This document shows positions 1 through 23,476 of a stretch of DNA of 64,000 nt, in pieces. The position numbers were made by a program, and so were the translations under genes. How positions within the stretch are numbered: the stretch's first letter is position 1; every line of letters starts with the position of its first letter. Location of the stretch: contig NC_087074.1 of the NCBI RefSeq assembly GCF_026151205.1, forward strand, positions 18,202,712-18,266,711, given 5' to 3'. The notes below the pieces were generated by a model. The model searched no databases and was not told the DNA's origin. It saw only the letters and a program-made list of their open reading frames with translations. The DNA is from Bolinopsis microptera (lineage: Eukaryota; Ctenophora; Tentaculata; Lobata; Bolinopsidae).

Positions 1-2241
1 ATCAATAAGTTATTTAACAACTGTCACAAGATCTGAATAAAAACATTGTTTAAGTTTTAATTCAGATCTTGTGAGAGTTGCTAAGCTGTTGTTGGCACAG
101 TTTAGTAAGAATTCGGTCTCTTGTAGGCTGTTGCCAGTCTGATAGTGATAGTTTGACTATCTTTTAATTTTAAACTTTTGACATGTCGCTGTAAAAGTAG
201 AGGTAATTTTCACATTAAATGAATATTTATCGAGTGAGCTGAGAATTATTATATAATATCACGATCGATGTACAAGTATTCAACGAGCTCTTCATGACGT
301 ATCTGTTGAAAGAATATGAAAAAATCGGTCTAAGTGTCGAGTGTCGGTCAGACATTTAACCAATACGGCTGTTCTTCTTTCTCAGTCTCTGAGCAATCGT
401 CAGATAGCTATAGACTTGGTAAATAATGGCGGCCCAATGCCCGTTTTTCAGACGCGTAATTTCAACGCTTATGCTATTAATACTTCAAAAATAATTTTCA
501 CACAGTTATTATTTGAAACCTTACTTATCACGCTTTAGCAAATATACGGATGCCTATTACTTAATCATTAGCTAATATATTTGTTGTTCGTTTTGCTGTC
601 ATTCCTTCATTCGCATAATATCGCTTGGTATTCTTTAGCTCCCCTGAGCCTTAGGCTAGGCGCTCATAATCCTTGATATTTTAAGTGACTCCAAATTATC
701 TGTGTTTATTGGGCTTCCAAGTAACCATTAGTTGTACCGCTGGAAGGTTTCATGGTAATTACACATGAAGAGCATCTGAATAGAATGTGCCAGTGTTATC
801 TAATCGGTACCGGCTTATAACAATACAGTGGTCAAACTAGATTCAATAGTAGTCGGCATCACTGATAATTCACATAACCAATAACGTTAAAAGTGAACTT
901 TCATCAACACAATCGCCAAGTAAGCTGGCGTGGGAGCCGTAAGTGCGCTTTACGCCGTTCAATAAAGTGACTGATAATCACGCACTTTACCTGCCGTTTC
1001 CTTGGCTTGTTATAGTTATACGGACGTCACTTGACAGTCTTTCTTAGCATTCTTTGCAGTGGTCACCGGTTTCTAGCCCTCAACTTTTGTAAAATAGGTG
1101 GTCCCGTCTTCGGGTCCTCAGAGACGAACTTCTGACAGTCCGTCAGCCGTATTAAGGACTCTGCAAAATGAATGCCGTAAATATGTCAAACATTTAGTCA
1201 TGACTCATGATCTTTTACCAGGTAATTCTATAGTGTGATCAATATTGGATGACTTCTACTGCTATAATGGTGACAAGTTGTAACAGCTGATCGGAGCTCC
1301 TGTCTTCTTTCTCTAGTCTCTAGCTCAACATTAAACATCTCTACAGACCTAACTGTACATGAGACTCGTGCCAAAAACTACAAAATCCAGCCAACTATAA
1401 CAAAAGAAGCATTTTCCAGGCTTCCAGTCGGAACATTTCACGGTATGACCTAATCACTTAGAACTTGTTCGACCAACAAGGCACTTTAGATTACAACTAG
1501 TCTTACCTTGCCTCCTGTTAACATACTCTAGTTATAACTCTGCTAGGTGTAATTCTACCCTGTCCGTCTAAAGAAATGCCACCGTCAAACAAGCCGGCAC
1601 CAGGGTGGCACCAGGGTGGCACCAGGGTGGCACCAGGGTGGTACTCCCCAGATAGGGAGGAGATACTAGTCTGACCCCTTCTAACTAGATGGTATCCAGA
1701 TTGGAGAGTGACCCAATAATTAAAGAATTTCTAATCGAGACTGTCAACACGACTCTTATAGCTCCTTCTTCCCCCGTATTCGGATTATTATATACAAATC
1801 TCTGTCAACAAGCTAACTGGACACGTTACACCAAATTTAAACTCTGAGAGAGAATTAGAGTTGCACAGCTCTAGTACACAATAATATTTAGGAGAATCGA
1901 TACATGTATGTTGTCATATTACATTTTGTTTCGTGCACCACGTACTTTTTTCCCTAGACGTACACACTACAACACAAAGCGCGTTGCCGGGATAGTTTTC
2001 TGACAGCTTCTCTACTTTTAGACCAGCTAGACTATAGGTTGATGCTGGGCCGACATTTTGCAGCGTGCTAGTTTTGTCTTGTTCCCCCCTGTGCTGTTGT
2101 TGTTGACAACTACTTCTCTCGTTTTGTTTATCCTTCGTTTTACGTCCACGTCTGTTAAACTTATAGCAAGGCTAGAAAGAGACTCGTGGAGATTTCGTGC
2201 TGTGTATGTGACAAAGATGATCGTATCTGCTGTGGATTGAA
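1..2241. other. Upstream region, no supported gene
   Basis: I see no exon with coding character here. The only structured element is a 12-bp tandem repeat near 1597-1641. The 2060-2220 stretch is pyrimidine-rich and ends in an in-frame TGA at 2218-2220, ahead of the first rod ATG at 2242. It could be 5' UTR or promoter of the myosin rod gene, but no convincing TATA box or initiator was found. Myosin motor exons, if they exist, would have to lie before position 1. Confidence 0.5.
1597..1641. repeat. 12-bp tandem repeat, about 4 copies
   Basis: The unit GGCACCAGGGTG is repeated about four times without interruption, upstream of the rod gene. No function is apparent. Confidence 0.85.
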
Positions 2242-2319
2242 ATGATAAGTGAAAGTGGTTTTTTGAGGAGATTCAAGGAGCATTTCCTACCAGAACTATA
2301 TTTCGATCAAGATGAAAAG
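2242..2319 (+). CDS. Rod gene exon 1 candidate with start ATG
   Basis: This encodes 26 codons beginning MISESGFLRRFKEHF and ending at a GT donor (AAG|GTAATT) in phase 0, which matches exon 2 at 3302. An in-frame TGA lies at 2218-2220 and no pyrimidine-tract acceptor lies between it and the ATG. That argues for a genuine first coding exon rather than one spliced from upstream motor exons. The peptide is not heptad-like, so support comes from phase and position only. Confidence 0.5.
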
Positions 2320-5300
2320 GTAATTAAACTGATGCTGACTATTGGCGACATGATTGACTAATGATAATTATGATAATGACTGACTTAACCACAATTAAAG
2401 TGACCTAATTAACGGTCCGATTGACAGTGGCACTGACATTGAAATTTAACTGACAGTGACACATACTGAATGCAAAGAACGCTCCAAACATTGTATATCA
2501 TTAGATGGTTTCATATTCCTGACAGTCAGTCAACGTGCTGACGTATCAGCCTACAAATAATCGCGGGTAAACTATATTTGAAACTTTAAATCTGCCTACT
2601 TAAAAGCTAGGAGTGGGAGTGGCAGAAGAGTGAATGCACGAGTCGCGAGTGTTGGTTTATTTTATACCAAGGACCATTTATACGATATCTTAACTCTTAA
2701 CATAGTATATTACGTGTTGATGTTTCCTTTTTGAGCAATGCTGGCGTTTATAACTATGGTGCAAACCATTCTTGATCCGAGATTTTTAATTCGGATCATC
2801 CAAATCCGTTTATTTGAGAATAATATGATTGCAATATCTGCCTGGACGACGTTAACAAGATGCCTGCGTTACTCAGTAAGCCCAATTTAGTCTAGTTTAA
2901 GAGATCATTTGATTAAAAAAGTATATCCTGATTACCATGCGTATATATGCTCAATTCACAACTAAATTTACACCATTTCATGCGATGAACAATCGTCTTT
3001 GCTTGTTGACTTGCCGTTATCAAACCTCCATATCCGTAAAATATAATCTGGTAAACACAATTCAACCATTCATTAGTTAGTTAAAATAAAGCGACACTTC
3101 TTTGACGGATTGTAATTATTAATCATTTAATCCGATTAAATGAATCGTCAGAGTGACGGCTTACATTTCTTTTGCTCTTGAATTTACAGAACCTTAAACT
3201 CTTTCGAACTTCAATGTTTAATGAGACCCTGGCCTATCTATCAATTTGTTTCTCACCATCCAATTTTCTAATCATGATTGTTAACAAATGCCATCTTTCA
3301 GAAAGAGGAGGACGTTAGAGAAAGGGAGGAGAAAGCACTTGTTGAAGTACAGAATGCAAATTCAAACAGAAGCAGGGTGGAAAAGCTTGAGAAGCTTATA
3401 AAGGTTAATATTTAGTATTTACTCTCGACTGTATAAATAGAAATGTTCTAAGTTCTAAGTAATCAAATACACGAGCTTTAAACACGGAACAAGACTTTTT
3501 ACAACATTAAATGCCCGTCCCGAACACGAACTGAGGATCAGGTATGGAATACAAATTACAAATTCGATTACAAACACAGTGAGTGATCTTATAATTGGAT
3601 AAAGCACGAACGGGGGCCATTTATAGAACACTTTAGTAATGACTTTTTATTTGTTTATGTCTTTGGATTGTTGTTTTTGGCGATGTTTCTATAATATTGG
3701 CAAGCCATGAAACAGAAATCAAGCAGGATCCTGATGCTTGAAAAGCTCATGAAGGTTAGTATTCTTACGGTCTTCTGTAGATCTGTTTAGACTTATCACC
3801 AGTGGATACATTTTGTTATTAAAACAAACAACTGCAATGACTTGTTGATATTTTGTTACCCTCACTATGACAACGATACAATCCCAGGCCAAAGAGAACA
3901 GTATCAAAACATTTATTACAAAGAACGATGCTCTGACTTCAGAATTGCTGGGGGTCAAAGAATTGCTCTATGAGAAAGATATGGCTTTCAGGTAGTTACC
4001 GTTTCTATGGTCGCTCGTTTTTTTGGGTTTTTGATTGTTTTTATTTTATCTTTGTTTCTGTTCTTCTACAGTTTTTATTTAAAGAGGTTCTTGTCGATGT
4101 TTCTGACACAAACGACTAAGAAAGGTGTATTTCTCGAACACTTTACAAATTTAGGGGAAGATTTCAATTTCAGTTCGACAAAGAAAACTACATGTGTAAA
4201 TCCAACTTAAAGTTTTATGTAACTGCTATGAAGCAGTCCTCTTGGTCCCCGAGGCCGAGGAAAACTTTAAGTTGGATGTAAACATTTAGTTAGCTTTGTC
4301 CGAACTTATACTTGCTCCTTATTCACATAAGTTAGCAATGTAATGTAATGTAGGAATCACAAAAATTAAGAGACTTAAGTTCAATTTTAATTATCGTCAA
4401 CACCTTAGATCAGTTAGTGACTCGCTGAATGTGGTAGTAGAGCGGTGTAATCACAAGTCTAAACAAGTCCAAGGGCAACTTGAGACTAACGATGAGCTGA
4501 CTGATCACAACGCGGTGAGTGGGTATATTTTTGAAGTCTGGGCAGCTCTTGTTTCTCTGAGAGGCAGCTCTTGTTTCTCTGAGAGGCGCAGCTGACAGAT
4601 ATGTCTTGTACAATGTACATTGTACAAGACAGGAACACAAAGCTTAAGTTGCCGCCCTCCGATAGAAGTTTCGGCGAGCTAAAGGCCAACTTTTGTAAAT
4701 GTGATCATATTATAAGACGTGACCTATCTCTACATATATGTGGGGATCACTGAGACACAATAGATTCGTAGGACCCAACAATTGATTTGGAAGACTTTCA
4801 AAAATGTTCTGACTTCTAAACCTTATGTTTATCAGTTCAGTCAAATTATTTTTAACTAATATTTCCAGATGTTACGATCTGACGTAGATATTTTGAAAAG
4901 AAAAGTGTCAGATCTTGAAAGTGAGGTTGTTGATTACGAGAAACTGAACGAAGAAAACAACGACGCGTACAAAAACCAAGTTTGCTAACAAAAAAGCAAT
5001 AACATATTTAGCTGAAGGCTGAAACCATTGACAGAAATTAATGATTAACCTTATGATTCGACATCCACTCTCGAACAACTGGGCGTTTTACAATTCTGTC
5101 AAGTAATGTTTGATTCAGGAGTCAGGATCATTTATAAACTTCACCTCAGAAGCAGCTACTCAGGAAAAGAGAGGAAGAACTTCTAGAACTTCGGAGTGAA
5201 TTCGAAGAAAAAATAGACAGGCAGTCAGAGTCGACAGCTTCAGTTCGAAAGAAAGCAGACCGGTGCTTGAACGAGAGCGAGCAGACGAAGGATCAGCTGA

Positions 5301-8300
5301 AGAAAATGAAAGATAAATTAGAGAAGGAAAGAGAGACCCATTTTGAGGAGATCCAGAGTCTCGAAATGGAGAAGTAAGAAACCAAAGAACAGATGAATAG
5401 ATGAATTGAGACGCTTCCCACTACTATTTAAATTCATGGATATCTAGGCTATATAATATATACATTTGTATTTTGAACCTAGTAGTACTTGTACCCGCAT
5501 GTCACATCTTAAGTTGTAATTATGGGTATGAGATGTGTGTAACCTCAATTAAATTCAGATTATCCCCAGGAACGAACTGATTCAGAAGCTGAGCAGTTCA
5601 GATAATCTGCTTAAGAAATCCCGGGAGGAGTACCTGTCCACGGCCAACAACCTGACCTTCACGGAAGCCGACTTCCATGCCCTTCAACTTAAATTCAACA
5701 GGTTTATTTGGATTTATCTTTACTTTATAAAGACTCCTAAACTTTATAAAGTTTAGGAGTCTTCAGTGCTGGTTAAACATTGGAAATGATAATTTAATCG
5801 TGTAATAATAATTACAAATAAGCGATGACATCTGAATTTTAAAATTATACTCATTAATGTTGTGTCATTAGTGTTCATAACAAATAGTATTCATATTCTT
5901 TTGGCTTCGTCGCGTAGTTCATAAAAGAGGATACCGCAGTTTACTCAGTATCCCTGCTAGTGTGTAATACGACCCCAACCAGAGCAGTTTACTCAGTATC
6001 CCTGCAAGTGTGTAATACGACCCCAACCAGAGCAGTTTACTCAGTATCCCTGCAAGTGTGTAATACGACCCCAACCAGAGCAGTTTACTCAGTATCCCTG
6101 CAAGTGTGTAATACGACCCCAACCAGAGCAGTTTACTCAGTATATCCCTGCAAGTGTGTAATACGACCCCAACCAGAGCAGTTTACTCAGTATCCCTGCA
6201 AGTGTGTAATGCGACCCCAACCAGAGCAGTTTACTCAGTATCCCTGCAAGTGTGTAATGCGACCCCAACCAGAGCAGTTTACTCAGTATCCCTGCAAGTG
6301 TGTAATGCGACCCCAACCAGAGCAGTTAACTCAGTATCCCTGCAAGTGTGTAATACGACCCCAACCAGAGCAGTTAACTCAGTATCCCTGCAAGTGTGTA
6401 ATACGACCCCAACCAGAGCAGTTTACTCAGTATCCCTGCAAGTGTGTAATACGACCCCAACCAGAGCAGTTAACTCAGTATCCCTGCAAGTGTGTAATAC
6501 GACCCCAACCAGAGCAGTTTACTCAGTATCCCTGCAAGTGTGTAATACGACCCCAACCAGAGCAGTTTACTCAGTATCCTTGCAAGTGTGTAATACGACC
6601 CCAACCAGAGCAGTTTACTCAGTATCCCTGCAAGTGTGTAATACGACCCCAACCAGAGCAGTTTACTCAGTATCCCTGCAAGTGTGTAATACGACCCCAA
6701 CCAGAGCAGTTTACTCAGTATCCCTGCAAGTGTGTAATACGACCCCAACCAGAGCAGTTTACTCAGTATCCCTGCAAGTGTGTAATGCGACTCTCCCCTC
6801 AGTCTGACCAAGGACCACGCCTCAATCAAGAGTGATCTCCAGAGTCACGAACAGAAAGTTACTACTCTCACTACCGAGAATAAAACCTTGAAGAAAAAGA
6901 TGGACAATTTAGAGATCGACCATGATACTCTAGTTCAACAAAGAGTTTCGCTCAATAACAGAATTCAAAATCTGCAAAGAGAGATTGAAGATGAGAAGGA
7001 TAAGGGGTTGAAGAACAACCAAATAATTGAGGTATAACTTAATACAATATACAAAACTCATATTATACAATTGTGATAGTTATGATCTACTTTTTAACCA
7101 TGATGATGTACTTTCTCACCATGATGATGAATTTCATAACCGACAGGATCTAAAGAGGCAGGCACAGCTGTATCTGAATGATCTGAACCTTTCCAACACA
7201 CGCTCCACTGAGTTCGCCAAGTCTACTCTGGAAGAAGAGGAAGACTTGCGGAGGAAGTGGCAGAACAGAATGAAGGAATCCGAAGACGAGATTAATCGGT
7301 TAACTGCAAAGTTAGTGCTAACTATTTGCCATTCAATTGAAATTTGTGATTCAACATTTTTGTCTAGCTGTGGCCTGGGATATTGAGTTAGAGAGTCCTT
7401 GTTGATTATTGAGCCATGCTGTGGTATTTCTGCACAGCCATGTTGCCATAGGTTTAGTCATCTGTATGTTGTGTTTCTTGGCTATACATTCCAAACAATT
7501 TCTTTGAGTCTATTATTATAGGTGCGTTGTCGATTACAGTAATAGTCATCAATCCATTAAATTATTTATAAATTTGACAGTCAGTTGGAATGGTACTGTT
7601 CAATAGTTGACGAAGGGAACGTTGTGTTTCATCTCGAAAAATAGAGTTGAAAAACACTTCGCCGCGTTTTTTCCGTTTAAGTCTCTCGTAATAAGTCTGT
7701 CATCGTAGCAATTTTTCAATTCTCGTGGTGCTGGTAGTAAAGAACGGAACTATCTGTATGACAATAATTCTTTAATAATGAAATTATAATATACCCTTGT
7801 ATTTGTCCTCCATTAACGAGTGAAGAGGTTGTAATATATTATTATATTATATTCGTTAGGAGCTTGTCAGATTCACTAATTTCAAAATTATATGACTTAA
7901 CTGTCGATATATTGGACCACATGCTAAGTTTGCCAGCCTAGTACCTGCTAGATTTGCCCTGTTGTTTTGACACCTGTCAGAATACACCCGTGTGATCACG
8001 TGACCGCTCACTGATCACGTGACCGCTCACTGATCACGTGACCGCTCACTGATCACGTGACCGGTCACTGGCCCTTATATTACGAAACCTACCCAACCCT
8101 ACCTCCCATAACTCAGATCAGAAGGAGCACCTTCAACTCCGCACCCGGCAGAACTTGTATAATATCAGAAAACGAGAGGTGTCTCAAAGTGACACCTTAT
8201 AAACTCGTATAACAGTCGCTACTGCACAAAGTTAGCTACGAAAAGTGTACACCCGGCTTGTAGCGTGTAATACTGGGTATCATCAACAACTCCATTCCCA

Positions 8301-11300
8301 ATTGTCAACACTATTTCCCGAACTCTCGCTCTCTCTCTCTCTCTCTCGCCTGCAAATTGCAAAGAGTTTGCTGGTTTGACTTGAGTCTGTTGTACATATC
8401 AAAGTCCACTGCATTTTTTTCGAGTTGTCAGTTGTTCCTGCGTGTAATTTCTTCTGTATTCTGCAATTATATTTCTAATTTGTAGTCTGAGGTGATCCTT
8501 TAATGTCTTTTACACCTATTCCCACTACAACTATTGATGCCGATGAGTAAGTTTGAGGAGTGTTTTCACGTTCAATTAAATGAATTTTTTATGAAAGAGT
8601 TTCCGATGCCTAATACATGTAATAGCTGAGTTTACATCGATATTTCGGTTGGTTTCGGGGTTCGACTGCATGTGGCACATTTGATTAAAAAATTACCAAG
8701 TCTCTGCAAAAATTTGCCCTTCTCTGCAGGAATATAACTTTCCTAATTTTAGATCTATTTCTATCAAATTTCAAAATACATAAATTTGAACCAAATTTCT
8801 TGTCCATAGAAGAGTTTTGTCACGAAAAAGACGAAAATATCAAATTTCTTCTTTGGTTTTTCGGCAGTAACACTTAAAGTATCAAATTTCATCATAGAGT
8901 CATAGCGTAAGCTGTTACTAAAAATAGCTATTGTGAACGTTTTGTACCTATGAGAAAATCCTCAGAACCTTCCAGACTCATCGCTCATCATATATAAATG
9001 ACTCATGTTTACATGAATATGTTAAGAGATCGCTATTCAACTCAGTGATTCCTCGTAAGTTGTTAACAAAAGTGGTAAAATTGTTCAGGACCTGTCATAC
9101 TGTGACAATCGCGGTTATTAAACACACCTTTCGGAGCTTTTGTACGTCTTCCTATTGCATACTGAAGTAAAAGTTTAAGAAATGCGTTAATAGAAACGCC
9201 CATAGAAAAATTGTTTTAGAAAGTCGTGTCAATTAGAATGTTCCTTACCATTTTTGGTTCTTAGGACTATGGCGAGTCAATTGCTTAAACAGAAAGTCAT
9301 CTCGATCACTTTATTTTTTCCTAAATGTCATATCATTAGAAGTAGTTATACTTGTGGCAGTCAACTTGTCAATCAATGGAACTTGTCAACCCATGGAAAC
9401 GTTTGGGAAACAATTAATCAATAATGATTCCTTTTAATAATGACTTATTCACTCTTTTGTTCAATGCACTAGCATTAGAGAAGAGGGACTATCAAGTTAC
9501 AACTTATCACTCACAATCTCCTTCCCTTAGATTAAAACTATCAGAAAAGAACAGAGCCGAGCAATGCGCGGATCTGGAGCAGCTTAACTACGACCTCAAC
9601 AGCACCAACAGAAATATGGTGTCATTGGAGAAAAAGCACAACAACGCTGAGATCATGTTGGAAGAGCATGTCTCACTCGATCAGGAGAACAGAGAGAAGA
9701 TAGAAACCATGAAGAGGTAAGTTCGGGTAATAGATCATAGCTCTAGATGAGACAATAAGGATTTGACAATAATAAGGAGGAGCCAGGAAACACCTGAGAG
9801 TTTAAATTCTTTGCATCCGATTTCGTTGGAATTTTGACAGATCATAATTGCATTTGCAGTTGCGATGGCGGAAAAAGGTTAAATATGCGGTTAGTAATAA
9901 GTGTGTTAATTTTCCGACTGACAGAAACCTACTTTTTGAAGCTGCTCGTCTAGAATCATGTTTTGCTAAATTTTGAGCTCTCTCTCTGAGCTTCGTGGCA
10001 GCCCAATATACTCACAGCGTTGTCATCACCGCAGTCATGTTTAGTACTCTTATTGTCACTGCTATAGTTGTGAGCTCTGTTACACCTCAAGCCTTTTTTG
10101 GCCGCTATTCAGTACATAGCACGATGTATTTTCTGCTTAATTTTTAGATTGTCAGCAAGTGGCCATGAGGAACTGTGAAATGCTATCGCCACCTCCGATG
10201 AATTCGGGGAATTCGTAGCAGTGTAGTAGCTTCTTCTGCATACGCGATTTTTAGTTTTCAGTTCACTATACCCTTGGTTGTTCAATAATTATTTTTTCGT
10301 AGTTATATTGATTCATGGTCCTGATTACTACTTATGTTATTGTTAAAGGTCATCAAACTTCTCTTTTTATGAGTATCACATATTAAGTTGACGAGAGCTT
10401 GTTATCATAGGATACATAAGAGCCTATTAGCTGATGCCCGATATTTTGATCCACGATTAGGTTTCTACTTTTAAGGTTCCACAATGACAGCACAGATCGC
10501 TAGCGTACACGCCTTGGAAAGGATATTTATATATTTTTTAACTGAACGCGCCATTTTTAAAACCGCGACCAATACCTCACTTAGTCACTCAACAGGATTT
10601 GCTATTAACATGGCTTTAGACATAAAATAGGCAGCAGTGAGCAGCACTACAGATTCTACATCCACACATACCACTTTTAACTTTGGTTTATCCTTTCCAT
10701 CGAAGTTTAACCAATTGTTATTTTTACCGCTCATTGAAAGTCCACATTTATTTTCGAGCAGTGATTTGTTGCTGATTCTGTATTTTTCTAGTTTGCGTTG
10801 TGAGTCCTTCAATGTCTTTTACACCTTTGCCCGTGATAGCTGAAGATGCAGATAAGTAAGTATATGTGTTTTGTTTTTTGCATTTCTCAATCAACAAACC
10901 GAATACATTTCGCGAGAGAGTTTTTCCATATATATACAGATTGGGCGACATCTGTCCGACAGCGACATCTGTCCGACAGCTGAATTAGGGATTTCGGACA
11001 GATGTCGCTGTCGGATAGGAGTCGTTTTTGGCGACATCTGTCCGAGTTTATATCGAAGTTTTGGCTGGGTTCGACAGCTGCATCCCCGACACCATAACTG
11101 CCAGAAACGTTGTGAGTGTGACGACATCCTTATCATTCCCTCATTAAACAGCTTTGGTTACTAGCATCACTTAGGTTTTCTGTTAAACTGCTGAAGCCTG
11201 ACATTTTGATCAACAAATAGGTGACATCACAAACTGACTGATCAACAAACAACCGACAACACTGGTCTCTGCGCGCTGCAAATATCCCAAACATGTAATT

Positions 11301-14300
11301 TTAAACTGTACGTGATACATTATAAACCTCACATTCACTTCATCACTCAACACAATTCGTATTGACATGGTTAGTAATAAGAAATTGTGTTGAGTGATGA
11401 AATTAAGTGGAGGTATATAAACCATTGTTTACTCCCGGGAAGCCTCTAAACAGTAACCACCCCACACAGGAGGAATGACAGACTACCAGAACCAGATAGG
11501 AGCTCTGAAGCAAGAGAAGGAGGTGGACATAAGACAGCAGAGAGATCTTAGGAACAAGATCAAGACTCTTCAGGATAGGGTGGAGGATCTCGAACATGAA
11601 GAGGAGTGTTCGGAGAGAAAGACTCAAGAGGTAATGGTACCCGCATCTTAAAAAAACGTTGAATGTGCAAAACCTATAATGTTAATGAAAATGTTGCTTA
11701 TTAGTTGTTCTTGATCATCCATAATTCGTTATATCGTCGTTAATAATTATGCAATACAGATGGGAAGGCAAGTGATGCGTCTTCAAGAACAATTAGAAAT
11801 GGCTAATGGTGCAATATCTGAACTCACTGAGGATGTTGAGAAAGCCAACCATAGAGCTGATAAAACACACAAAGACAGTCTCCTTGCTATGGAACAGGTT
11901 ATATCATGTTAAATCATATTAGTTGTTCAGTTTTGGGACACAATAAATGATTAACTCTAATTACAATTACCTTATTAGAGCTTATAGGTCTAAAAAGAAG
12001 AGTACAGCCAACAATTGGTTGAGTCAATTTCCATTATCTACAGAAAACAAACATTCTGGCTGAGAAAGATGACGAGATAGAGATGGTAAAGAAGACATGT
12101 CGGGGAACAATAACCCTCCTTAAAAACCAGCTGGAGGCTGCTGAGCAGGAGATCAACAAACTAGTGAGTACAGAATAGAATCTCACTAGTTTGCTGTGCA
12201 TAATCACATGATCACAATATGTTAAGATGTTGATAAATCCGAAGCTGACTTGAAATCAGTTAATCTAGATATCGGGATTGATTAGAATTAAAATGTTAAA
12301 ATCTCTAAACTCGAAATTCCACAGATTCTGATTAAGAAAGAATTGGAAGGCGAGATCATGCTACTACAGGATGACTTGGATGAAGCTGAGGCCACTGTAA
12401 ATGAACTTAACAACGAGATACCTCGCCAGCAGGACATCTTAGAGCAGGTTTGATTGCTTCACCATAATGAGATAATGTTAACTTGACCGAAATACCCTTT
12501 CATAGTAGAAATTCATCGCCTCATCGGAAATTTATCACCTCAGCCTATATATGGTGTGGATTGTGGAATGATCAAGTTCCTTAATGGAGAAGTTTGATTT
12601 AAAAGATTCTTTGTTCATAAGCCGCATACTTTAAATAGTTCAGATTAAAGTATTCGTAATTTCGTATATCTTTTGCCCATTTAAAGTCATGTAAACATAC
12701 GACAAAGGTCCGAAATCAGGTCTCTAATCAGTGAACTGACCTCTACAAGTGTCATAGGGCGGAATGAGGTGATTTATCAATTCCTCCCGGGCACACGTAC
12801 TCATATCAGTCTGTGACAAGGGACCCCTTTATTGTGACATGCAACTACCCAACTGTGACATGTGACTATCCTGTGACGTGTGACTTCCTTACTCGGTGAC
12901 TCCCTTCCATGTCTAACAACACCCATCCAGTTGTACACATCTAACTGTGATCCACCTAATTCCACAGCTTGCATAGACTAACCGTCTCTTTTGTGGGGTT
13001 TCTGTTACTAAAACTGGAGAGAATCAGGGGTCAGATAAGTCTCTGGGGGGCTACGGTCAGTGTTAAACAGGAGATGTAAGTTGGCAAGTGTTGACTGTTG
13101 ATGTCAAGGTCACTGTGCGTAACCCATCCTACAATCTTCACCTGACACCTCTTAACCGCTTCTTCCCTGTCACACATTGTTTTAAAATGTGATCTCACCC
13201 ATAACAGTGACTTTACAGTAAAAGTAAGTTAAGAGTTGCAGTGACATTAGTATTAACTCACTAACAAAGTAAAAAGAAAGCTGTGTTTTCGTCTCTAACT
13301 CTGATCAGACCTGCAGCTGCTCCATCAACTATCTACCCTAACTTTTCCCTGGTTATCGTATCCTGGCTAGATATAATTCCATTGAGGCCTCTTTCTTAAA
13401 GCTTTAAAAAGGGCTAACCAGCAAAAAGCTGACTGATACTCACAGTTCATTGAAACTTCACCAGCACACTATCCACTAACCTCAAAATTAATAAACCCAC
13501 AGTATAACACTCCCAACTGAAACCTACCTCCCCCTCCAGTTGAACATGAGTCTGGGTGAGGCTACAGCACGTTGTGAAGCGTTACAGGACGCCCTGGTCC
13601 GAGCTGACCTCAAGTGTACCCAGCTTTCAACACGGAATGACGAGCTAGAGGACCACGTGAAGCAGGTCAGTAAAATAGTAGTGCTGAGGAAGGGGAGGCT
13701 GAGGGAGGGGAGGCCGTGATATTGCAGCCTCTGCAGAGTGAGTATTACACTCCAACCGCTGACAGCCGGCTTATAAGTTAGAGGTGGTTTGGTTTCCTGA
13801 TGTGTTTGTTGACGTGTTATTGTAGTTGGCTCATTGGACAACCTTATCAATGCTCGTCGTGTTGCCTTTTTCCGTGCAGTATGGCTTTTTTGTAATATTA
13901 CTTTTAAAGTGATATACAATATATCTGATTTGTTAAAAGCTTATATTCGTTATATTTTTAAGTTGTAACCAGAGTAACCAGTTACAAGCACGAATTATGT
14001 CCTTGCCCTAAATAAAAACCTTTGCGCTTATAGTTTGTTATAGTATTTAATAAAGCTTCTCTCTTCTTTTCTTTACAATGTTTAGATGAGAGAAAACCAG
14101 GAGTGCAGACAGCACTAAGATATTATCCCTTCAACATACTTCCCTCCTTCTTTCAACACTAAACACACCATATTCCTGTTTAGGGTGAGACACAGAAGCG
14201 CCTGACTGATCAAGATAACATCGACCTCCACAACAAGATATCAGAACAGTCAGCCAAGGGAGAAGCTCTGTTGGACACCATCGCTAAAGTGGAGGCTCAG

Positions 14301-17300
14301 CTGGAGATACAGTCCGGTTTGATGGAGGCGATGGAGGCAGATAAGAGCAACTGGGAGCTAGAGAGACGTAAAATGAGGGAACTGGTCAGTAGCTTTAAAC
14401 AGCACTTTAAACTGTTATGGGGAGGAATTGTTTATCGGAAATTTTATTTAATCGTTAATAACTTTTATGACGTTTGTGTAGCTTTTTCCCAGCTTCTGTA
14501 TCAGTTTTGATCCATCCAGTTAAGGATCCTTAAGAATTTAAATGAGCACTTGTTTCAGATCACTACGCTGGAAGCTGATAATCAGCATCTTGAGGAGGTC
14601 AGAGTTGGTCTGGAATGTTCCGAAAACAAGATCAAGTCCCGTCTCAGGGTTAGTAAATTTTTGGTATAATACGACCATAAAAACTTAACTTTAAAAGTCA
14701 TTAAAACTTGTTATCCTTTGCCATTCATTTTTTCGGAAAATTTCTGAAAACGTTCGAAGTGCTATTGGCTCCAAAACAGTAAACACCGATCCACAGGAGG
14801 CTATATCAGAACACGATGACGCCATCAAGAGTGTGAAGAACACCCACCGAGCGAGAACACGTGCTCTGGAGAGCAGAGTAGCGGAACTAGAGGGGAACCT
14901 GGAAGAGGAGACCGAGAGGAGGACTCATTTAGAGAAGGTGGGGAGAAGTGCTCAGTGCTCCGTTTTTAGAGCTGTGCTCAGTACCTTATCAGCTCTTTTG
15001 TGGATGGCCCTATATTAGGGCCATTCGATATTGGGGTTGCTAGTTGTTCCCAGTCCCAATTTAGGATATAATTTTAAAAACAATTTCAATACAGCTGGGG
15101 TTTTTTGGGATATTTGTCTGTGGGGTTTTTTATCTGTACAGCTTACTTTGTCTAGTTCGTTCAAATTGCTGTTTAAATGAGCTTCAATAAAACCTAACAA
15201 CAACTAAAAATTTCATTTAGATAGCAGCTTACTGTCACATTATTTCGGACCAAAAAATCAGATGAATTAAAAAATGGCCAAAGCAAAACTATAAAGCGAC
15301 TTTCAGCTACTGGCCTTCCATGATTTTGGCCACTCACAGTCTGGTCGGTCCAAAAAGGGTATATAAAGTACTTAAATTTCTTCTTGAGACTGAGAATGTG
15401 GGTCAGTCGGTTAATCAAATCATCTGCTTGTCTACAGCTGCTCTGAGGTGTTGAGTTCGAATCCCGGTTGGGCTACAATTTCAAAACTGCAGAGCAGCTG
15501 TGATTCACCAAACTACGGTGCACATGATACTGACTCTTATTAATTATTTCTTCTTGTGTCTGACAATTTAAACTTATTTCCATAAATGTTACACTTCGTG
15601 TTATTAAGCTTTTTGACTTTCTGCGGAAGTTTAAATAACCATGTTTTGACCTGTAGGGACTGAAACGATTGGAACGACTCCTAAAAGAGTTGGAGATCCA
15701 AGCGATGGAAGATACCCAGACGATTGAAAGACAGGTGGATCAGATAGCTAGTGTTAACAACAGAAACAAACAGCTCAAAACTCAGTTCGCTGATGCAGTA
15801 AGTGTGAAATGTCATAGAAACTTCTATTATATGGTAAATAGTAGGTCTTCAAGAGACCAGTGATTTTCAGTTAGTGAGTAAAGTTAGTAGGATAGTGATG
15901 AAACAGCACGTTAGGGATTGGTCTGTTACTTTGACCAGATCAGTACAGTCACACCTACCTGCACCAATAGACACTGTAAGCTTTACTTATCATATGTTCC
16001 TAAAACCAAATATGGCTACAATAACCTATGACCCCACAGGAAGCACGCATTATATCGCTGCAACAGAAACTCCGAAAGTTGACGACTGAGGTTGAGGATA
16101 GTGAGGGAAGGAAACGCTACCATGACTAAAATGTTGAGCACACCTGCTAGTCGTTGTACTTCCCGACAATCGGTAGGTCGATTTTGTGGGTGTATGTTTT
16201 GAGTATTGAGAAAATGAAATGAACTGCTAGTAAACTTTGTGGGTAGATTAAGAAACAAAAGCATGAAAACTACGGTGGGAACGGGGATCATAATCTACTT
16301 CTGACGAGCAGAAATATGATAAAAAGTACATGATGCTTGTTGATTGTAGAAGCATGGTCACTTTCTCAATTTCCAACATATCAAGAGTCCTAAAATTAGT
16401 TTGGGTATGTAAGCCGTCTCAAGCAAGAGTGCAAAAATTCTGCAGAAATTAAATTTCTCTGCCGCCTTATAAGTCTTATAAGTGTGATAATGTTTGTCAT
16501 TGTGTTGAGAGATTTATAGAACTCATGAGCACACTCCCGCTAAGATTTAGGAAACTTTAAACCAACAATGCAATATGCATATTGCTAAGTGCAATGTGCA
16601 CATTTCCAAAAAACTTAACCAAAAGCTATCGTCACCTCTAAATGGCGCCAAGCTCAGTCAAGTAAGACTACAATCACTATCAACTATGTTAGTACATACT
16701 GAGCAAATACTCTTAGTACTTTAACAATTCGTATCAAGCTGGAGAGTGGAGCTGTTTTAAAACTTACCCGGCATCTAGGCAGTGGTCATAGCAAAACCGT
16801 GAACCAGGCATTGTGCTCGCTATATTAGTCATGCAACCTCCAAGCCTCACTAATAATGCTTCCTTTATAAACTCAGAAGAAATTTTTTCATGAACAATCT
16901 TTAACCACTTGCAAAACATTCACAAAGACTTTTGAATGATCCACAATGCTTATACCCGTGAAATACAGAGAGCCACGTTCCGATCATCCCGGCCGGAGAC
17001 TGCCATGTCATGGGACATGGAAGGGACGCAGGATCTGAACCAAGTTCTGAACGATAAGCTGTATACAGTATGTTACGTGTCCAAAATAATAGTTAATACA
17101 TGTTCATTATGATACTAACTCCAGTAATATTCATTACTCGTGGCCATCATGGCGTTATATGGCTTGACTAACATCGTTTTGAATCATACGATTTTGAGAC
17201 CAGATTCTCCTAGGAATCTTATCAAGACTAGGAAATATTATGTTTTGATTCAATTTCATGTCAGCCATCAAATTATCTTTTTAAATAATGTTGGTTTAAT

Positions 17301-18468
17301 TGTAAGCAAATAATTCGTATTTCACACTGTTTATTAGCGTGATTAAAATACATTTAATCAGATATTCAGATGTGCAGTGGATATCACTCCACATCTTATA
17401 TTTAAATCTAAGAGGGCATCTTTAAGTTCATGTTTGAGTGTTCATCAATTGTTTATCAGACTGATAGGCTACTTATGTGTGTTGTGATACTTCCCGATAT
17501 ATAACAAGAGGTCCACGCAGGTCAAAATAAACTGAGAAGCATTTTTAAGTCACATGACAGTATGCTGTCAAATTTCAATCCGCATGATTTATATTTACAA
17601 CGTACCATGTACTATAACAGTAACAGTGTTACTAACACTACCAACAGTGTTACTAACACTACCAACTTTCACACTCCGCACGTACAGAACGAAATACTGT
17701 ATTGATTCTGTACAACGGGCCATCTCACTTTCGATCACTATCTGTTCCGATTAAAACTGTTGGTAAATCAACCTATCAATCTATGTACTTTAATCAAACT
17801 TTCAAATGTCAATTAATCGATCTGACTAGATCTCCCAATATCAGTCAATTAACCAATGCATAAATTTGACGTGACAGTGACACGAATACTCGTTTCTGAG
17901 GTCACGTGATCATAGAGCACGCACTCTCTCTCTAACATAGAGCACGCACTCTCTCTCTCTAACACCTCTTCTCCCGCAGCAAATGATGAGGAACAGTGTT
18001 ATGGGAAGCAGGTCCGTAAGTAGACTGATCAGCCCGGAGGTAGAGTCAATCATGATGTCTGGTCGAAACAGCCCGGTTGGACCCCTGTCCATCCTCTCCG
18101 GACGAAACAGTCCAGCTTCCCAAAGAGCTGCATCTCCTGCTGGGAGCATCAGAAACTTCCAGTTTGAGGACAACTTGTTGACCAAGGATTATGAGATTGA
18201 AGGCGAGAGTAAAACAGAAAGTGAAAGTAAGCCTGAATGCGAAAATAAGGATGTCGACGAGAGTAAATCAGATGAGGCAAAGCCGATTGTGTCACCAGAG
18301 GATAAAGTTCCAGAAGTTATTTTGACAGAGGAAGATGTGAAGAAACCAGTAGATTTTGCAAAAGAAGAGGGATGTCAAGTGATTGGTGAGAAGGCACTAT
18401 GGGAGAAGGAAATTATTGTACCAGAGAATGATCAAGAAAATGCACCAAAAGCAGTAAATGGGCACTAA
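2242..18468 (+). CDS. Myosin-II-type rod (heavy chain tail) gene, spliced
   Basis: This is a spliced coiled-coil gene. Exons read from the sequence: 2242-2319, 3302-3403, 3888-3991, 4418-4514, 4869-4979, 5150-5373, 5570-5701, 6803-7031, 7147-7310, 9531-9716, 11475-11630, 11760-11897, 12044-12163, 12325-12447, 13540-13665, 14184-14384, 14559-14648, 14797-14937, 15657-15797, then either 16040-16129 (stop) or 16969-17067 plus 17980-18468. All junctions keep frame except 9716 to 11475. The product is about 1,100 residues of Glu/Lys/Leu-rich heptads. Exon 10 has the myosin-like SLEKKHNNAE segment. Exons 17-20 line up in order with the end of the myosin II rod (recalled alignment), for example ALESRVAELEGNLEEETE against the family's ALEAKIAQLEEQVEQE. 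The last exons give a non-helical tailpiece. A rod of this kind would assemble as a parallel dimer into filaments. No motor, IQ motif or other domain is seen. A cingulin-like or paramyosin-like relative is the alternative. The family call is firm; the exact paralogue is not. Confidence 0.83.
3302..7310 (+). CDS. Rod gene exons 2-9, N-terminal coiled coil
   Basis: Eight exons (3302-3403, 3888-3991, 4418-4514, 4869-4979, 5150-5373, 5570-5701, 6803-7031, 7147-7310) all join in phase. They encode continuous charged heptads such as KKMKDKLEKERETHFEEIQ and LNNRIQNLQREIEDEKDKG. Exon 6, the longest here, starts KQLLRKREEELLELRSEFEE, which resembles the myosin II segment around QLAKKEEELQ. Exon 5 ends at a weaker donor (GTTTGC). 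The exon 8 acceptor lies directly after the 48-bp minisatellite. Confidence 0.82.
3705..3754 (+). pseudogene. Relict duplicate of the 3' end of exon 2
   Basis: The stretch ending MLEKLMK|GTTAGT closely resembles the end of exon 2 (KLEKLIK|GTTAAT), including the donor site. It lies 350 bp downstream, in the next intron. No acceptor puts it in phase with its neighbours, so it looks like a partial tandem duplication that is not used. Confidence 0.5.
4201..4276. repeat. Inverted repeat, 16-bp perfect arms
   Basis: Arms at 4201-4216 and 4261-4276 are exact reverse complements (TCCAACTTAAAGTTTT). The loop is about 44 bp and contains a shorter GAGG/CCTC pairing. It lies in a rod-gene intron and could be a small foldback element remnant. 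Confidence 0.8.
5730..5763. repeat. Perfect 34-bp palindrome
   Basis: Two 17-bp halves with no spacer, starting AAGACTCCTAAAC, sit in the intron just after exon 7 and before the minisatellite. Confidence 0.9.
5932..6800. repeat. 48-bp minisatellite, about 18 copies
   Basis: A 48-bp unit (CCCTGCAAGTGTGTAATACG, then ACCCCAACCAGAGCAGTTTA, then CTCAGTAT) is repeated about 18 times with few changes (ATACG/ATGCG, TTTAC/TTAAC) and one 2-bp insertion near 6142. Because 48 is divisible by three, long open frames run through it on both strands. These are artefacts of the repeat. It ends at the exon 8 acceptor (CTCCCCTCAG at 6802). Confidence 0.97.
7993..8069. promoter_or_regulatory. Array of four 19-bp repeats, each with an E-box
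   Basis: The unit TGATCACGTGACCGCTCAC is repeated four times (the last with one change). Each holds the palindromic E-box CACGTG, read by bHLH-ZIP factors of the USF/MITF/TFE type. It lies about 430 bp upstream of the ATG of an internal candidate first exon (8503), a position suited to an internal promoter or enhancer. The sequence is certain; the regulatory role is inferred. Confidence 0.6.
8331..8349. repeat. CT dinucleotide run
   Basis: Short (CT)n tract about 160 bp upstream of the first MSFTP exon, possibly part of its promoter region. Confidence 0.7.
8503..8546 (+). CDS. Alternative first exon A (MSFTPIP...)
   Basis: A 44-nt open stretch starts with ATG, encodes MSFTPIPTTTIDAD, and ends in phase 2 at a consensus donor (GA|GTAAGT). 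It fits exon 10 (9531), which needs one nucleotide, giving MSFTPIPTTTIDADELKLSE. No acceptor is evident in front, and a closely related copy lies at 10812. This is the pattern of an internal first exon that replaces the upstream rod with a short leader. Confidence 0.6.
9531..9716 (+). CDS. Rod gene exon 10 (LEKK segment)
   Basis: It encodes 62 residues from LKLSEKNRAEQ to ETMKR. The acceptor is CTTCCCTTAG and the donor AG|GTAAGT. It includes SLEKKHNNAEIMLEE, which matches the position and pattern of the conserved LEKKQ segment of the myosin II rod. Reading through the donor gives an immediate TAA, so without splicing the chain would end here. The next recognised exon (11475) does not accept this phase. 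Confidence 0.8.
10812..10855 (+). CDS. Alternative first exon B (MSFTPLP...)
   Basis: This is a second copy of the MSFTP exon: same 44-nt length, same phase-2 donor (AA|GTAAGT), encoding MSFTPLPVIAEDAD. Sequence resemblance continues upstream (TTCTGTATT...CTAGTTTG against CTAATTTG). No recognised downstream exon takes a phase-2 donor, so either an exon before 11475 is unseen or this copy is dead. Confidence 0.45.
10945..11046. repeat. Direct and inverted copies of an 18-bp motif
   Basis: GCGACATCTGTCCGACAG occurs twice in direct order (about 10945 and 10963), once inverted (about 10994-11013), and a partial direct copy follows at about 11031. The cluster can fold into a long hairpin. It lies between candidate first exon B and exon 11. 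Confidence 0.85.
11339..11401. repeat. Inverted repeat, 19-bp perfect arms
   Basis: Arms at 11339-11357 and 11383-11401 (TTCATCACTCAACACAATT and its complement) flank a 25-bp loop. The hairpin ends 13 bp before a TATA-like element at 11414. Confidence 0.85.
11414..11420 (+). promoter_or_regulatory. TATA-like element upstream of exon 11
   Basis: TATATAA lies 55 bp before the ATG at 11475, the right distance for a start site near 11445. It is preceded by a hairpin. AT-rich DNA gives such matches by chance, so this only becomes interesting with the failed in-phase join of exons 10 and 11. Confidence 0.3.
11475..11630 (+). CDS. Rod gene exon 11, possibly a separate start
   Basis: It encodes MTDYQNQIGALKQEKEV to ERKTQE (52 codons) and ends in phase 0 at GAG|GTAATG, matching exon 12. 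Upstream in frame are GGA GGA and then a TAA at 11454-11456. Acceptors nearby (CACACAG|GAGGA, or GACAG|AC) all require a phase-1 donor, but exon 10 and first exon B end in phase 2. So the ATG may be a true start, or a small exon is missing. A trans-splice acceptor at CACACAG|GAGGA is a third option. Confidence 0.75.
11760..15797 (+). CDS. Rod gene exons 12-19, C-terminal coiled coil
   Basis: Eight exons (11760-11897, 12044-12163, 12325-12447, 13540-13665, 14184-14384, 14559-14648, 14797-14937, 15657-15797) are all phase 0 with clear acceptors and donors. They encode 46, 40, 41, 42, 67, 30, 47 and 47 residues of heptads without a break. Exon 18 (NTHRARTRALESRVAELEG) and exon 19 (IASVNNRNKQLKTQFADA) line up in order with the end of the myosin II rod (family GNARVKQLKRQLEEAEEE). 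Because every exon here is a multiple of three in the same phase, exons could be skipped or swapped without a frameshift. Confidence 0.87.
12448..13539. other. Intron 14 of the rod gene, no feature
   Basis: About 1.1 kb without an exon. It contains short imperfect repeats of TGTGACATG/TGTGACTA near 12833-12895 and nothing else I can support. Confidence 0.6.
15395..15480 (+). repeat. tRNA-like sequence, probable SINE head
   Basis: An A-box-like TGGGTCAGTCGG (15399-15410) and a B-box GTTCGAATCCC (15455-15465), about 45 bp apart, have the spacing of an internal RNA polymerase III promoter. The implied acceptor and D stems do not pair well, so it is not an intact tRNA gene. A tRNA-derived SINE or tRNA pseudogene in the rod-gene intron fits best. 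Confidence 0.5.
16040..16129 (+). CDS. Rod exon 20 with its own stop (short C-terminus)
   Basis: It follows exon 19 in phase 0 (CCCCACAG|GAAGCACGC), continues the coiled coil as EARIISLQQKLRKLTTEVED and ends ...KRYHD with TAA at 16127-16129. Its register matches the last heptads of the myosin rod. Splicing from exon 19 straight to 16969 is also in phase, so this looks like an alternative terminal exon giving a product without the tailpiece. An internal donor (GATA|GTGAGG) might instead splice onward. No clear polyadenylation signal was seen. Confidence 0.65.
   Translation, partial: EARIISLQQKLRKLTTEVEDSEGRKRYHD
16969..17067 (+). CDS. Rod exon 21, tailpiece linker
   Basis: It encodes 33 residues from RATFRSSRPETAMSWDMEG to NDKLYT, phase 0 at both ends (ATACAG|AGA and ACA|GTATGT). 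It is no longer heptad-like (Pro, Trp, Gly), marking the change to the non-helical tail. It joins in phase to either copy of the final exon (17980 or 22988). Confidence 0.65.
17980..18468 (+). CDS. Rod terminal exon 22, Ser/Pro-rich tailpiece
   Basis: It encodes 162 residues plus TAA after CTCCCGCAG. The N-terminal half is basic and Ser-rich with a doubled SGRNSP motif (SGRNSPVGPLSILSGRNSPA) and several SP sites, likely targets of proline-directed kinases. The C-terminal half is acidic, with repeated ESK/ESE. In myosin II, phosphorylation of the non-helical tail controls filament assembly; a like role here is inference. I do not recognise a closer relative of this tailpiece. A near-identical copy lies at 22988-23476. 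Confidence 0.75.
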   Translation, partial: QMMRNSVMGSRSVSRLISPEVESIMMSGRNSPVGPLSILSGRNSPASQRAASPAGSIRNFQFEDNLLTKDYEIEGESKTESESKPECENKDVDESKSDEAKPIVSPEDKVPEVILTEEDVKKPVDFAKEEGCQVIGEKALWEKEIIVPENDQENAPKAVNGH

Positions 18469-21335
18469 ATTTACAAGCACTTTCAATGGACCGGGAAAAA
18501 TTGAATGGGGACTTTCAAAATGGCGGAGGGGAAATTATTATTTGATAATGATAGTAATAGTATGATTATGAATATTTTACAATGGTTTTATTTAAAACTA
18601 TTTATTATTTGAATTTTAGGGATCAGACTAGACGACAAGATATGGACAAATATTTACAATCTAGATTAATTAGACGAAGGCACCCAGTGACTATGATTTG
18701 GTAATAATTTTTGTGAATGAGATTGCGATTTTTTCTGTATTTGAGTTATGAATTTGAATGAAGAATATTTTATATTTCTCAACGCTTACTTTCATTTTGT
18801 CATATGTAAAAAATAATTGAAACAAGTATCTGAATTTTCTGCAAATATTAGTTAAGATCACAAGTCCGAAATTTTTGTAACAACGCGGGAAAGTCTCAAC
18901 GTACAAAATAATCGACAGAAAGTGAGGTCATCACATTTTCGTCGTTAAAATTAAAATTAACAGTTACGGTTGAGACTTTCCCGAAATGAGCATCAAACTC
19001 CCAAAATAGAGCTGATGCCTACAATGCCAGACAATTCATCGCACTACGTTCACTGGTCGTACTACTTTCGCTGCCCGTACTAAAGCTTCCACTGGTAACG
19101 GGAACCGCAGATATTTATTTCCGGGGGTGAAAATTTACCGAATACTAAATCATCATTAATTGTCAGATAGATTGAACTTAATTGGCCATCTTTTCACTTT
19201 TCATGTTATGCACAATCAGAAGTGAAAGAACCTCCGGAAATGAAATCGCCGCGGCCTTTTTCTGTTCAGTGGTGACGTCAAAATATGTATTACCAACATA
19301 TCAAAGTAAAAAATCGGTATTTTCGGTTGACTTCGCCTCTATCATACATTTAAAGCATTTCAAGGCTTAAATTCAAACAAAAATCTCAACTACAAACCCC
19401 GTAATATAATTAAACCAATTTAAAAATTAAATCAAGCGGATTATCGAAACCCTGTCCACCTCTTAACCGGATAATATCATACTATATGATAAATATTATG
19501 ATCTTAAACGTGCTGAATTTTTATTAAATCGCAAAGATATCACACAATGTGTAATTCACGCAAGTACCAAGGGTACAGAGTCTTTCTGAGATGAAATATA
19601 TATACAATAGTCACATCTGGGAATTTTGTGATTTTACAAACTAGCATGCTTCAAAATGGCTGGAAATCTGATATTCCAACTGACAGGGTATCGGACAATC
19701 GAAATGTCTTATCAGACCAAATATTAAAATCACGCTGAGTAAAATAAAAAAAGTTGTATAATAGGTTCCCAAGGCTAGCGAAATAAGCTGTTTTATTTCA
19801 ATCAAACCTTTTTCAAATAAAATCTCAGATAACTGAATAACCGGCAACGGCACATAAAGTCTATGTCAATTATCGATATTTATAGCGTACAAAAATTAGT
19901 TTCATGACCGAACAAAAACAGTTTACATTTACATAACCACAGACATTAAATAATATTTGACTTGATCAAGCTTAGTCTTGATCAAACCAGTATTTTATTG
20001 TAAAAACATGTCATATGACATATTGATAAATTGAAAGGATTAAGGTTAATCGAGGATGAACCTTTCAAGATCGCCTCAACGCATAGTTGAGGATTCTTTG
20101 CATGGCAAGCTGGTGATAATTTCTTGAATAGTGAAAGAAACCTCTTTTTTAACTCATTTCACGATACACTCATATATTTATCGTTACATAAGAGTCGGTT
20201 ACGATTACAAATTTTAATGAGACCCTCAGCAACAAAAATGGGAAAAGATCAAGTCATGAATTTAATGGGACTTTGTTGTTAATTTGACTGGGTCAGAAAT
20301 TTTGTGATGAAGAATATTATAACTGCCAAAATAATGAATGGATTTATATTTCTCTCGCATTGTACCAAAGGGAAAAATCTAATTAAATCTTCTATCCATA
20401 TTTGCTGAGGGGGTCCCAAAGATAATTACAACAGTAAAAACGATTAAAAAGGTCAAGTTTAATTTGCTAACTGGACCAAGACTTTAAATTGACTGACTGA
20501 AAATTTCTTGATTACATCAGTTCTCAATCCCACACATTACACGTGCAGCTACACAAAGTTAACTGCTGCGAAAACGACACAGATCGAAACACAACATAAC
20601 GAGCAACCCACAATCCACATAATATAATCAAAGAGACAAAATCACATTTCATTGTTCGTAACTAAAAGTATAATATCTATAAAGGATTATCATTCTTTAT
20701 TTCGAGAGAGCACTGCAATGAAGATCATCGTATAAATCGTGCCACTTAACTTACCACGTAGAACGTGAATATAATTGTCGGTGTTGTTGTCTATTGTAAA
20801 GTTGCGCAGTCACTGCATACCACAATCGATGCCCGGGAGAGGTGCGGTTCTTGCAACTGAATTAAACTGGACATCTTACTATATATAAAGCGAGACGATA
20901 TATATATATATATCTGTGCCATTTTACTGACACCACGGCATCGACTTTAACGCAACTTTCTGCAAAAACCGTAAAAGATATACAACTGAAACTTTTTTGG
21001 CTGGGTCAAATGCTTTAATATCCTCCAAATCAGCATGAAAAAATAAAAAATTGGCCGAGGAATAATGATTTTAGAGCCGAAAATTTGGACCCCCAAGTGG
21101 TGTCAAAAACGCCAATTAAATAGGTAATAATTATTTCAGTATCTTGAGTCTTGACACCGTTTAGGGCTATATTTCACGGGTTCCTGCTAGTTTATTCTAA
21201 AGCACACTTGCACTGGGCACCAATATTCACGTTTTGACAAAATATTCGACAACACCACAGATACAATTTAACTCTGTGGTCAAAATATTCAAATATAACG
21301 GGACAGATAGTCTCATGCCCATATTCTATGGATAC

Positions 21336-22987: not shown

Positions 22988-23476
22988 CAAATGATGAGGA
23001 ACAGTGTTATGGGAAGCAGGTCCGTAAGTAGACTGATCAGCCCGGAGGTAGAGACAATCATGATGTCTGGTCGAAACAGCCCGGTTGGACCCCTGTCCAT
23101 CCTCTCCGGACGAAACAGTCCAGCTTCCCAAAGAGCTGCATCTCCTGCTGGGAGCATCAGAAACTTCCAGTTTGAGGACAACTTGTTGACCAAGGATTAT
23201 GAGATTGAAGGCGAGAGTAAAACAGAAAGTGAAAGTAAGCCTGAATGCGAAAATAAGGATGTCGACGAGAGTAAATCAGATGAGGCAAAGCCGATTGTGT
23301 CACCAGAGGATAAAGTTCCAGAAGTTGTTTTGACAGAGGAAGATGTGAAGAAACCAGTAGATTTTGCAAAAGAAGAGGGATGTCAAGTGATTGGTGAGAA
23401 GGCACTATGGGAGAAGGAAATTATTGTACCAGAGAATGACCAAGAAAATGCACCAAAAGCAGTAAATGGGCACTAA
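22988..23476 (+). CDS. Duplicate terminal exon 22' of the rod gene
   Basis: Same acceptor (CTTCCGCAG), same 489-nt length and stop as 17980-18468. I see three base differences, giving Ser to Thr and Ile to Val plus one silent change, and no frameshift. Only the last exon is duplicated. It could serve as an alternative last exon reached from exon 21 (phase 0), or be an unused recent copy. Confidence 0.65.
   Translation, partial: QMMRNSVMGSRSVSRLISPEVETIMMSGRNSPVGPLSILSGRNSPASQRAASPAGSIRNFQFEDNLLTKDYEIEGESKTESESKPECENKDVDESKSDEAKPIVSPEDKVPEVVLTEEDVKKPVDFAKEEGCQVIGEKALWEKEIIVPENDQENAPKAVNGH

Follow-up and report, generated by a model that had tools for sequence, protein, structure and literature searches.

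Does the myosin rod gene found in a 64,000-nucleotide stretch of the Bolinopsis microptera genome (RefSeq assembly GCF_026151205.1, contig NC_087074.1; C3:18202712-18266711, the whole of which is called the window below) stand alone as a motorless gene, or is it a rod product of a headed myosin heavy chain (MHC) locus? A first-pass annotation of this DNA had described a myosin II rod gene that lacks a motor and has its candidate first exon in duplicate, a description our analysis supports, and had likened it to the rods made by headed loci, Drosophila myosin rod protein and molluscan catchin/myorod, a kinship we do not uphold, as no motor was found here and three headed genes lie elsewhere. 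We consider it probable that the locus is a free-standing motorless gene of the MHCIIb family, that is an MHCIIb duplicate minus its motor, which carries a duplicated internal first-exon unit and has a role in the thick filament.

The rod gene and the search for a motor

Exon boundaries were derived from the sequence and then verified by splicing, giving a rod of 20 exons on the forward (+) strand, the strand of all features listed here, with GT-AG introns throughout; the chain from exon 1 to exon 10 bears out the earlier call. When exons 2-19 are read as two segments (2-10 and 11-19), each in its own frame, there is no stop in 865 codons, compared with 61 and 73 stops in the other two frames, and the G+C content at the three codon positions is 0.544/0.273/0.536 against 0.382 in four introns. 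A custom spliced protein-to-DNA aligner, run unrestricted over window positions 1-19000 with four guides, recovered 12 of the 18 exons 2-19 with both ends identical when guided by the Mhc2 rod, and also yielded spurious small exons. Judged by its sequence, the rod gene is real.

The product of exons 11-20 (residues 4-436) aligns with residues 1478-1910 of scallop striated MHC, colinear and ungapped over 433 residues (E 5.7e-13), and scores 40.4 bits against a cut-off of 38.1 for PF01576 (Myosin_tail_1), while exons 1-10 match residues 1144-1455 of Lethocerus Mhc_X1, an insect MHC rod, by phmmer (E 5.1e-5). A PF01576 scan of the genome (264,652,675 bases in 232 contigs, the scope of all genome searches below) did not match the window exons singly.

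Three headed myosin II genes with rods are found elsewhere in the genome: Mhc1 (C3:4.91 Mb), Mhc2 (C3:9.15 Mb) and MHCIIa (C6:14.6 Mb). A genome scan with PF00063 (Myosin_head), in which 65 of 94 first-look candidates were scored, gave at least 73 matches, the last scored on C3 lying at 11.07 Mb, 7.1 Mb before the window, with none listed beyond it. The check for an upstream motor that the annotation had proposed also came back empty: four pieces of the Mhc1 motor, searched by tblastn against 50 kb of upstream sequence and window positions 1-12000, returned only four hits with E of 0.16-0.93, and the same pieces, as positive controls, found the motors of Mhc2 and MHCIIa. Since a motor was not found at or near the locus, the rod would be a separate gene and not a rod isoform of a headed locus, with a strongly diverged motor farther off being possible.

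The nearest relatives of the rod can be sought in its sequence, its introns and its place in a tree. Against the spliced window rod the Mhc2 and Mhc1 rods score 665 and 662, a vertebrate striated rod 574, and MHCIIa 316, with reversed guides as controls at 120-163. Introns at exactly the same residue and phase are common to 5 of 10 in Mhc2, 3 of 6 in Mhc1 and none of 18 in the non-muscle MHCIIa; random shifts share on average 0.10, 0.05 and 0.18, respectively, and none of 2000 attains the Mhc2 or Mhc1 counts. With one residue of slack the shared introns number 5, 3 and 2 of 18, reached by 0.25%, 0.25% and 21% of shifts. This comparison is limited to the shared rod part, in which 18 of the 19 window introns could be placed, and before counting we removed small end or doubtful exons (two in Mhc2, one in Mhc1 and four in MHCIIa) and introns beyond the shared part (1, 1 and 3, respectively). 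In a tree of seven rods, of which only one is a paramyosin, the window rod joins Mhc1 and Mhc2 (100/98). On this sequence evidence the gene is a motorless derivative of the striated-type heavy chains of ctenophores, a paralogue in its own right that evolves fast. A search for a second copy or haplotig with the DNA of 9531-18600 returned only itself, a duplication of exon 22 and a dispersed element.

To the annotation the gene seemed to start within the tail, at an ATG at 2242 behind an in-frame stop. The stop, a TGA at 2218, is present, and together with the missing motor it is what makes the exon at 2242..2319 (MISESGFLRRFKEHFLPELYFDQDEK) a candidate first coding exon, a status that follows from these two points. 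Exon 2 (3302..3403) has its end placed by all four guides and its start by three of them. A further stretch with an ATG, 3707..3754 (MKQKSSRILMLEKLMK), is in phase with exon 3 and is a partial copy of the 3' end of exon 2 (score 23, against a maximum of 17 in 300 shuffles); perhaps it is another start exon, or a relic. Exons 3-6 (3888-3991, 4409-4514, 4869-4979 and 5150-5373) and exons 7-9 (5570-5701, 6803-7031 and 7147-7310) follow, introns 4|5, 5|6 and 7|8 being common to Mhc2. Intron 7|8 also holds a minisatellite (5936-6791) of 17.8 copies of a 48-bp unit with 98% matches, in which long frames (305, 231 and 124 aa) stay open because the period is a multiple of three. Intron 9|10 is among those common to Mhc1 and leads to exon 10 (9531..9716).

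Beyond exon 11 (11470..11630) the light-meromyosin part is encoded by exons 12-15 (11760-11897, 12044-12163, 12325-12447 and 13540-13665) and 16-19 (14184-14384, 14559-14648, 14797-14937 and 15657-15797), with introns 18|19 and 19|20 again common to Mhc2. Exon 20 (16040..16172) is followed by exon 21 (16969..17067), presumed to begin a non-helical Ser/Arg-rich tail, and by exon 22 (17980..18468), which would supply a Ser/Pro-rich tail and the stop. A second copy of exon 22 (22988..23476) differs at 3 of 489 nt and belongs to a tandem duplication, 17654-21471/22689-26173, whose two copies mismatch at 22 of 3474 aligned bases, differ by 317 nt in length and show smaller indels besides. It would have arisen by recent duplication, or else be two haplotypes that the assembly placed one after the other.

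Elsewhere in the window some 176 copies of GGAG (33831-34529) leave long open frames on both strands, and neither a Pfam search of ten other open reading frames (E <=0.01) nor an Rfam search of the window (gathering score) gave a match.

Duplicated leader exons and the putative packing part of the rod

Two related 44-nt first-exon candidates had been reported within rod introns, and both are present as described: leader exon A (MSFTPIPTTTIDAD, 8503..8546), in the intron 9|10 shared with Mhc1, and leader exon B (MSFTPLPVIAEDAD, 10812..10855) each end at a phase-2 donor GTAAGT, and A joins exon 10 at 9531 in frame, as had been proposed. Their resemblance exceeds chance, an alignment of A and B with their flanks scoring 44 against a maximum of 23 among 300 base-shuffles. 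The homology runs from about 100 nt upstream of the ATG (from 8395 and 10732, respectively) through to the donors, and thus takes in the stretch upstream of A (8395..8502), a putative promoter and 5' untranslated region, and its homologue upstream of B (10732..10811). Identity is 69 of 79 aligned positions upstream, gaps apart, and 32 of 44 in the coding part. Of the 14 codons there, inspection shows 8 to be the same, 1 to carry a silent difference and 5 to encode another residue. A and B are true duplicates, a unit of upstream sequence plus first exon having been duplicated.

The leader pattern is unique in the genome. A 21-base pattern of the leader with 19 fixed bases has two perfect matches in the genome, A and B themselves; allowing up to three mismatches gives 52 matches, among which just two besides A and B have as few as 2 mismatches and all others have 3, against 125 for the backward pattern as control. 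Each host intron contains exactly one open candidate shorter than 200 nt that runs from an ATG to a phase-2 GTRAG, namely A or B. In the matching Mhc1 intron no leader was found (scores of 14 and 11 against shuffle maxima of 18) and there is no candidate exon, and nothing resembling a leader was found at exon 1 (15 and 15 against maxima of 18 and 22). Two repeats lie near the leaders: 4.1 copies of a 19-bp unit (TGATCACGTGACCGCTCAC) at 7993-8070, about 430 nt upstream of A, and a short dispersed element at 10928-11049, between B and exon 11, which is present at no fewer than 38 other places in the genome at 93-98% identity (40 of 515 candidates scored).

The two leaders do not join the rod equally well. 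Translation of leader B from its first ATG (10812) does not continue into the frame of exon 11, whereas translation from another ATG, at 10846, does, and then gives MQIRGMTDYQ. Up to three start points, as the annotation had it, are possible, with the reservation that the first ATG of B, as sequenced, does not serve.

Both halves of the rod show a heptad peak at 3.52 residues. A charge repeat of about 28/3 residues is the signal for side-by-side packing of myosin and paramyosin rods, and each half of each of the three headed rods has it (0 of 1000 shuffles in every case). In the window rod this repeat (9.4 residues) is found in exons 11-20 (p 0.003), being strongest from about exon 13, and is not significant in exons 2-10 (p 0.215). 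The leaders thus precede the part of the rod that keeps the repeat, though not exactly at its edge.

In bilaterian muscle motorless rods, among them paramyosin, myorod and myosin rod protein, build or tune thick filaments. We envisage that an MHCIIb gene was duplicated in the ctenophore line and that the motor, the neck and about the first 180 rod residues were then lost. We expect its protein to form a coiled coil of two chains that carries a non-helical Ser/Pro-rich tail. The C-terminal part of the rod probably still packs with thick filaments, and the rod would most likely co-assemble with, cap or modulate the thick filaments of the headed myosins. If active, A and B would give short rods consisting mainly of the packing-competent part. 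A more elaborate version, which we put forward tentatively and regard as having a minor though real chance of being correct, makes this a ctenophore-specific gene whose tandem-duplicated internal promoter and first exon produce nested rods (full-length, from exon 10 and from exon 11), the short ones setting thick-filament length or assembly.

Apparent breaks in the reading frame and rival readings

Overlooked in the earlier work was a failure to join exon 11 that exon 10 shares with leader B (when B starts at its first ATG), each being off by the same single base: both end in phase 2 and exon 11, as sequenced, requires a phase-1 donor, having one base too many for the MHC alignments. In the spliced exons every one of the five guides detects one base too many close to the 10|11 junction (1436), at 1441, 1441, 1441, 1453 and 1474, and when exons 1-10 and 11-20 are aligned apart, none of four guides calls a shift within either. 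That the misfit is identical for two unlike upstream exons is most simply explained by a fault where exon 11 begins. The spliced rods of Mhc1 and Mhc2, taken as controls with three guides each, show no shift. In MHCIIa, a further control, a shift was called exactly where a 22-nt exon had been omitted, so that a missed small exon can mimic a break of frame. However, the alignment registers across 10|11 make room for two residues, or 6 nt, from the end of exon 10 to the M in exon 11, where 7 nt are present, and an exon missing between the two is less likely, as it would add residues the alignments do not call for; nor does leader B supply such an exon. Alternative acceptors for exon 11 fare no better, with an in-frame TAA 21 nt upstream and both AGs after it needing a phase-1 donor.

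A second one-base surplus is likely in exon 20, to judge from its sequence, where the rod frame terminates as YHD* and the +1 frame continues through exons 21 and 22; skipping of exon 20 (19 to 21) would be in phase. Given that the remaining tested rod frame is open, the surplus base of exon 11 most likely reflects an error of assembly or an allele. According to the part of its published description available (PMC10232365), the B. microptera assembly was made from PacBio reads with wtdbg and pilon polishing, a route that makes residual single-base errors plausible; RNA-seq and Iso-Seq reads served for its annotation. For the frame breaks taken together, assembly error, allele, missed small exon and recent lesion are indistinguishable here.

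Several observations weigh against the reading of the locus as a free-standing MHCIIb-family gene with internal first exons. The reading frame is interrupted at 10|11 and probably a second time in exon 20, which gives a recent pseudogene some probability. The unrestricted alignment bridged 10|11 with small spurious exons and called no shift there, and with one guide it placed a shift at 12052 instead. No PF01576 match was listed for exons 1-10 up to E 1. The branch of the window rod is very long (3.31 changes per column), so that its place in the tree leans on the intron evidence. The sequence upstream of the leaders is as alike as their coding part and 5 of 14 residues differ, from which there is no clear constraint on the leader peptide, and the internal promoters proposed at A and B are inferred from sequence alone. 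The charge repeat is also less sharply placed than the halves suggest: the sub-parts give p of 0.072 for exons 6-10, 0.11 for exons 11-15 and 0.011 for exons 16-20, and in sliding windows the signal climbs only about 100 residues past the start of exon 11.

One rival reading, which we think unlikely and nonetheless take seriously, is a recently dying pseudogene of an MHCIIb duplicate. Under it both interruptions, at 10|11 and in exon 20, would be genuine and fixed, and a rod could by now come from no mRNAs other than those of the B type (ATG 10846 or 11475). The surplus called by every guide at or near 10|11 and by none within the separately aligned halves, an exon 20 that stops while another frame continues, the unshifted Mhc1 and Mhc2 rods under the same handling and the very long branch would all be expected of it. 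A dying gene is harder to reconcile with the absence of stops from the 865 codons, the strong codon-position signal and GT-AG introns throughout, or with a leader B that is in frame from its second ATG, and the MHCIIa case shows how a missed small exon may look like a lesion.

Leaders A and B may also be something other than first exons. It is doubtful, in our view, that they are tandem-duplicated cassette ('poison') exons bringing a stop, or acceptors for spliced-leader trans-splicing, although the conserved block before both ATGs does hold pyrimidine-rich stretches with AG, and, taken as cassettes from the AGs tested in it, A meets an in-frame stop in all 4 readings and B in 3 of its 4. The homology extends from about 100 nt upstream to the donor, which is more than an acceptor needs, and the single open ATG-to-phase-2 candidate in each intron, together with the fit of A to exon 10, sits better with first exons.

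That the gene is a ctenophore paramyosin orthologous to the bilaterian protein is very improbable. In its favour, a headless gene of its own encodes this myosin-like rod, and UNC-15 of C. elegans scores 396, above its reversed control (162) and MHCIIa. Against it, the ctenophore Mhc1 and Mhc2 score far higher, UNC-15 pairs with MYH7 in the tree (93/93) where the window rod takes the other side, exact introns are common to the ctenophore headed genes, and the strong charge repeat of UNC-15 covers its whole rod, unlike that of the window rod with its N half lacking a significant one. A PDB search with paramyosin as control returned only myosins and myosin chimeras at E <=1e-5, so the absence of paramyosin from the search with exons 11-20 is no test of the matter.

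Relation to known motorless rods

With a free-standing MHCIIb-family gene as the preferred reading, its closest counterparts are to be sought among separate rod genes. Lottia gigantea Mhc8 is described, in the text available, as a tail-only MHC gene with EST support that lies in a tandem Mhc array and starts where catchin starts (PMC3912159). Like it, the window gene is separate and codes for no part of a muscle myosin heavy chain except its coiled-coil tail; unlike it, the window gene has no headed gene found within 7.1 Mb upstream and has duplicated internal leaders. The Aurelia paramyosin-like protein (LC342273), reported in the part of the source available as a rod in a striated-muscle preparation with <30% identity to MHC rods (PMC5958069), is likewise a non-bilaterian rod distinct from the headed heavy chain, although it was shown as a protein and the window rod is known from its gene. 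Drosophila myosin rod protein and molluscan catchin/myorod, by contrast, are given in the sections available of two papers as alternative rod products of a headed MHC gene (PMC3912159, PMC4410989). They too are motorless rods that take new N-termini from starts inside the rod part, for which the window gene has candidates, and differ from it in that a motor was not found at the window locus. In type the window gene stands closer to Lottia Mhc8, or to the protein of Aurelia, than to catchin-type products.

Within ctenophores, the window gene shares rod homology and exact intron positions with Mhc1 and Mhc2 (MHCIIb1 and b2), which have motors. In Mnemiopsis three Mhc genes are reported, and a headless one is not mentioned in the portions available of PMC3502136 and PMC3912159. 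Nor was a ctenophore headless rod seen among the matches listed in the partly available literature on ctenophore myosin, muscle or paramyosin, on headless or truncated myosins and on internal promoters. In Mhc2 itself (C3:9.15 Mb), positions 3986-4489 of the extracted locus hold two alternative loop-1 exons, the downstream one about ten residues longer, resembling the mutually exclusive loop-1 pair of Mnemiopsis Mhc2, in which the 3' exon has nine residues more (PMC3912159, text available in part).

Tail-only myosin genes are already known, Lottia Mhc8 being one, and the ctenophore case adds duplicated internal leaders, which make nested rod isoforms simple to test by RNA. An independent origin of muscle has been proposed for ctenophores (PMC3502136, available in part). 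If our reading is true, the gene would represent a convergent motorless rod, one derived from the ctenophore striated-type heavy chains and not shared with bilaterian paramyosin.

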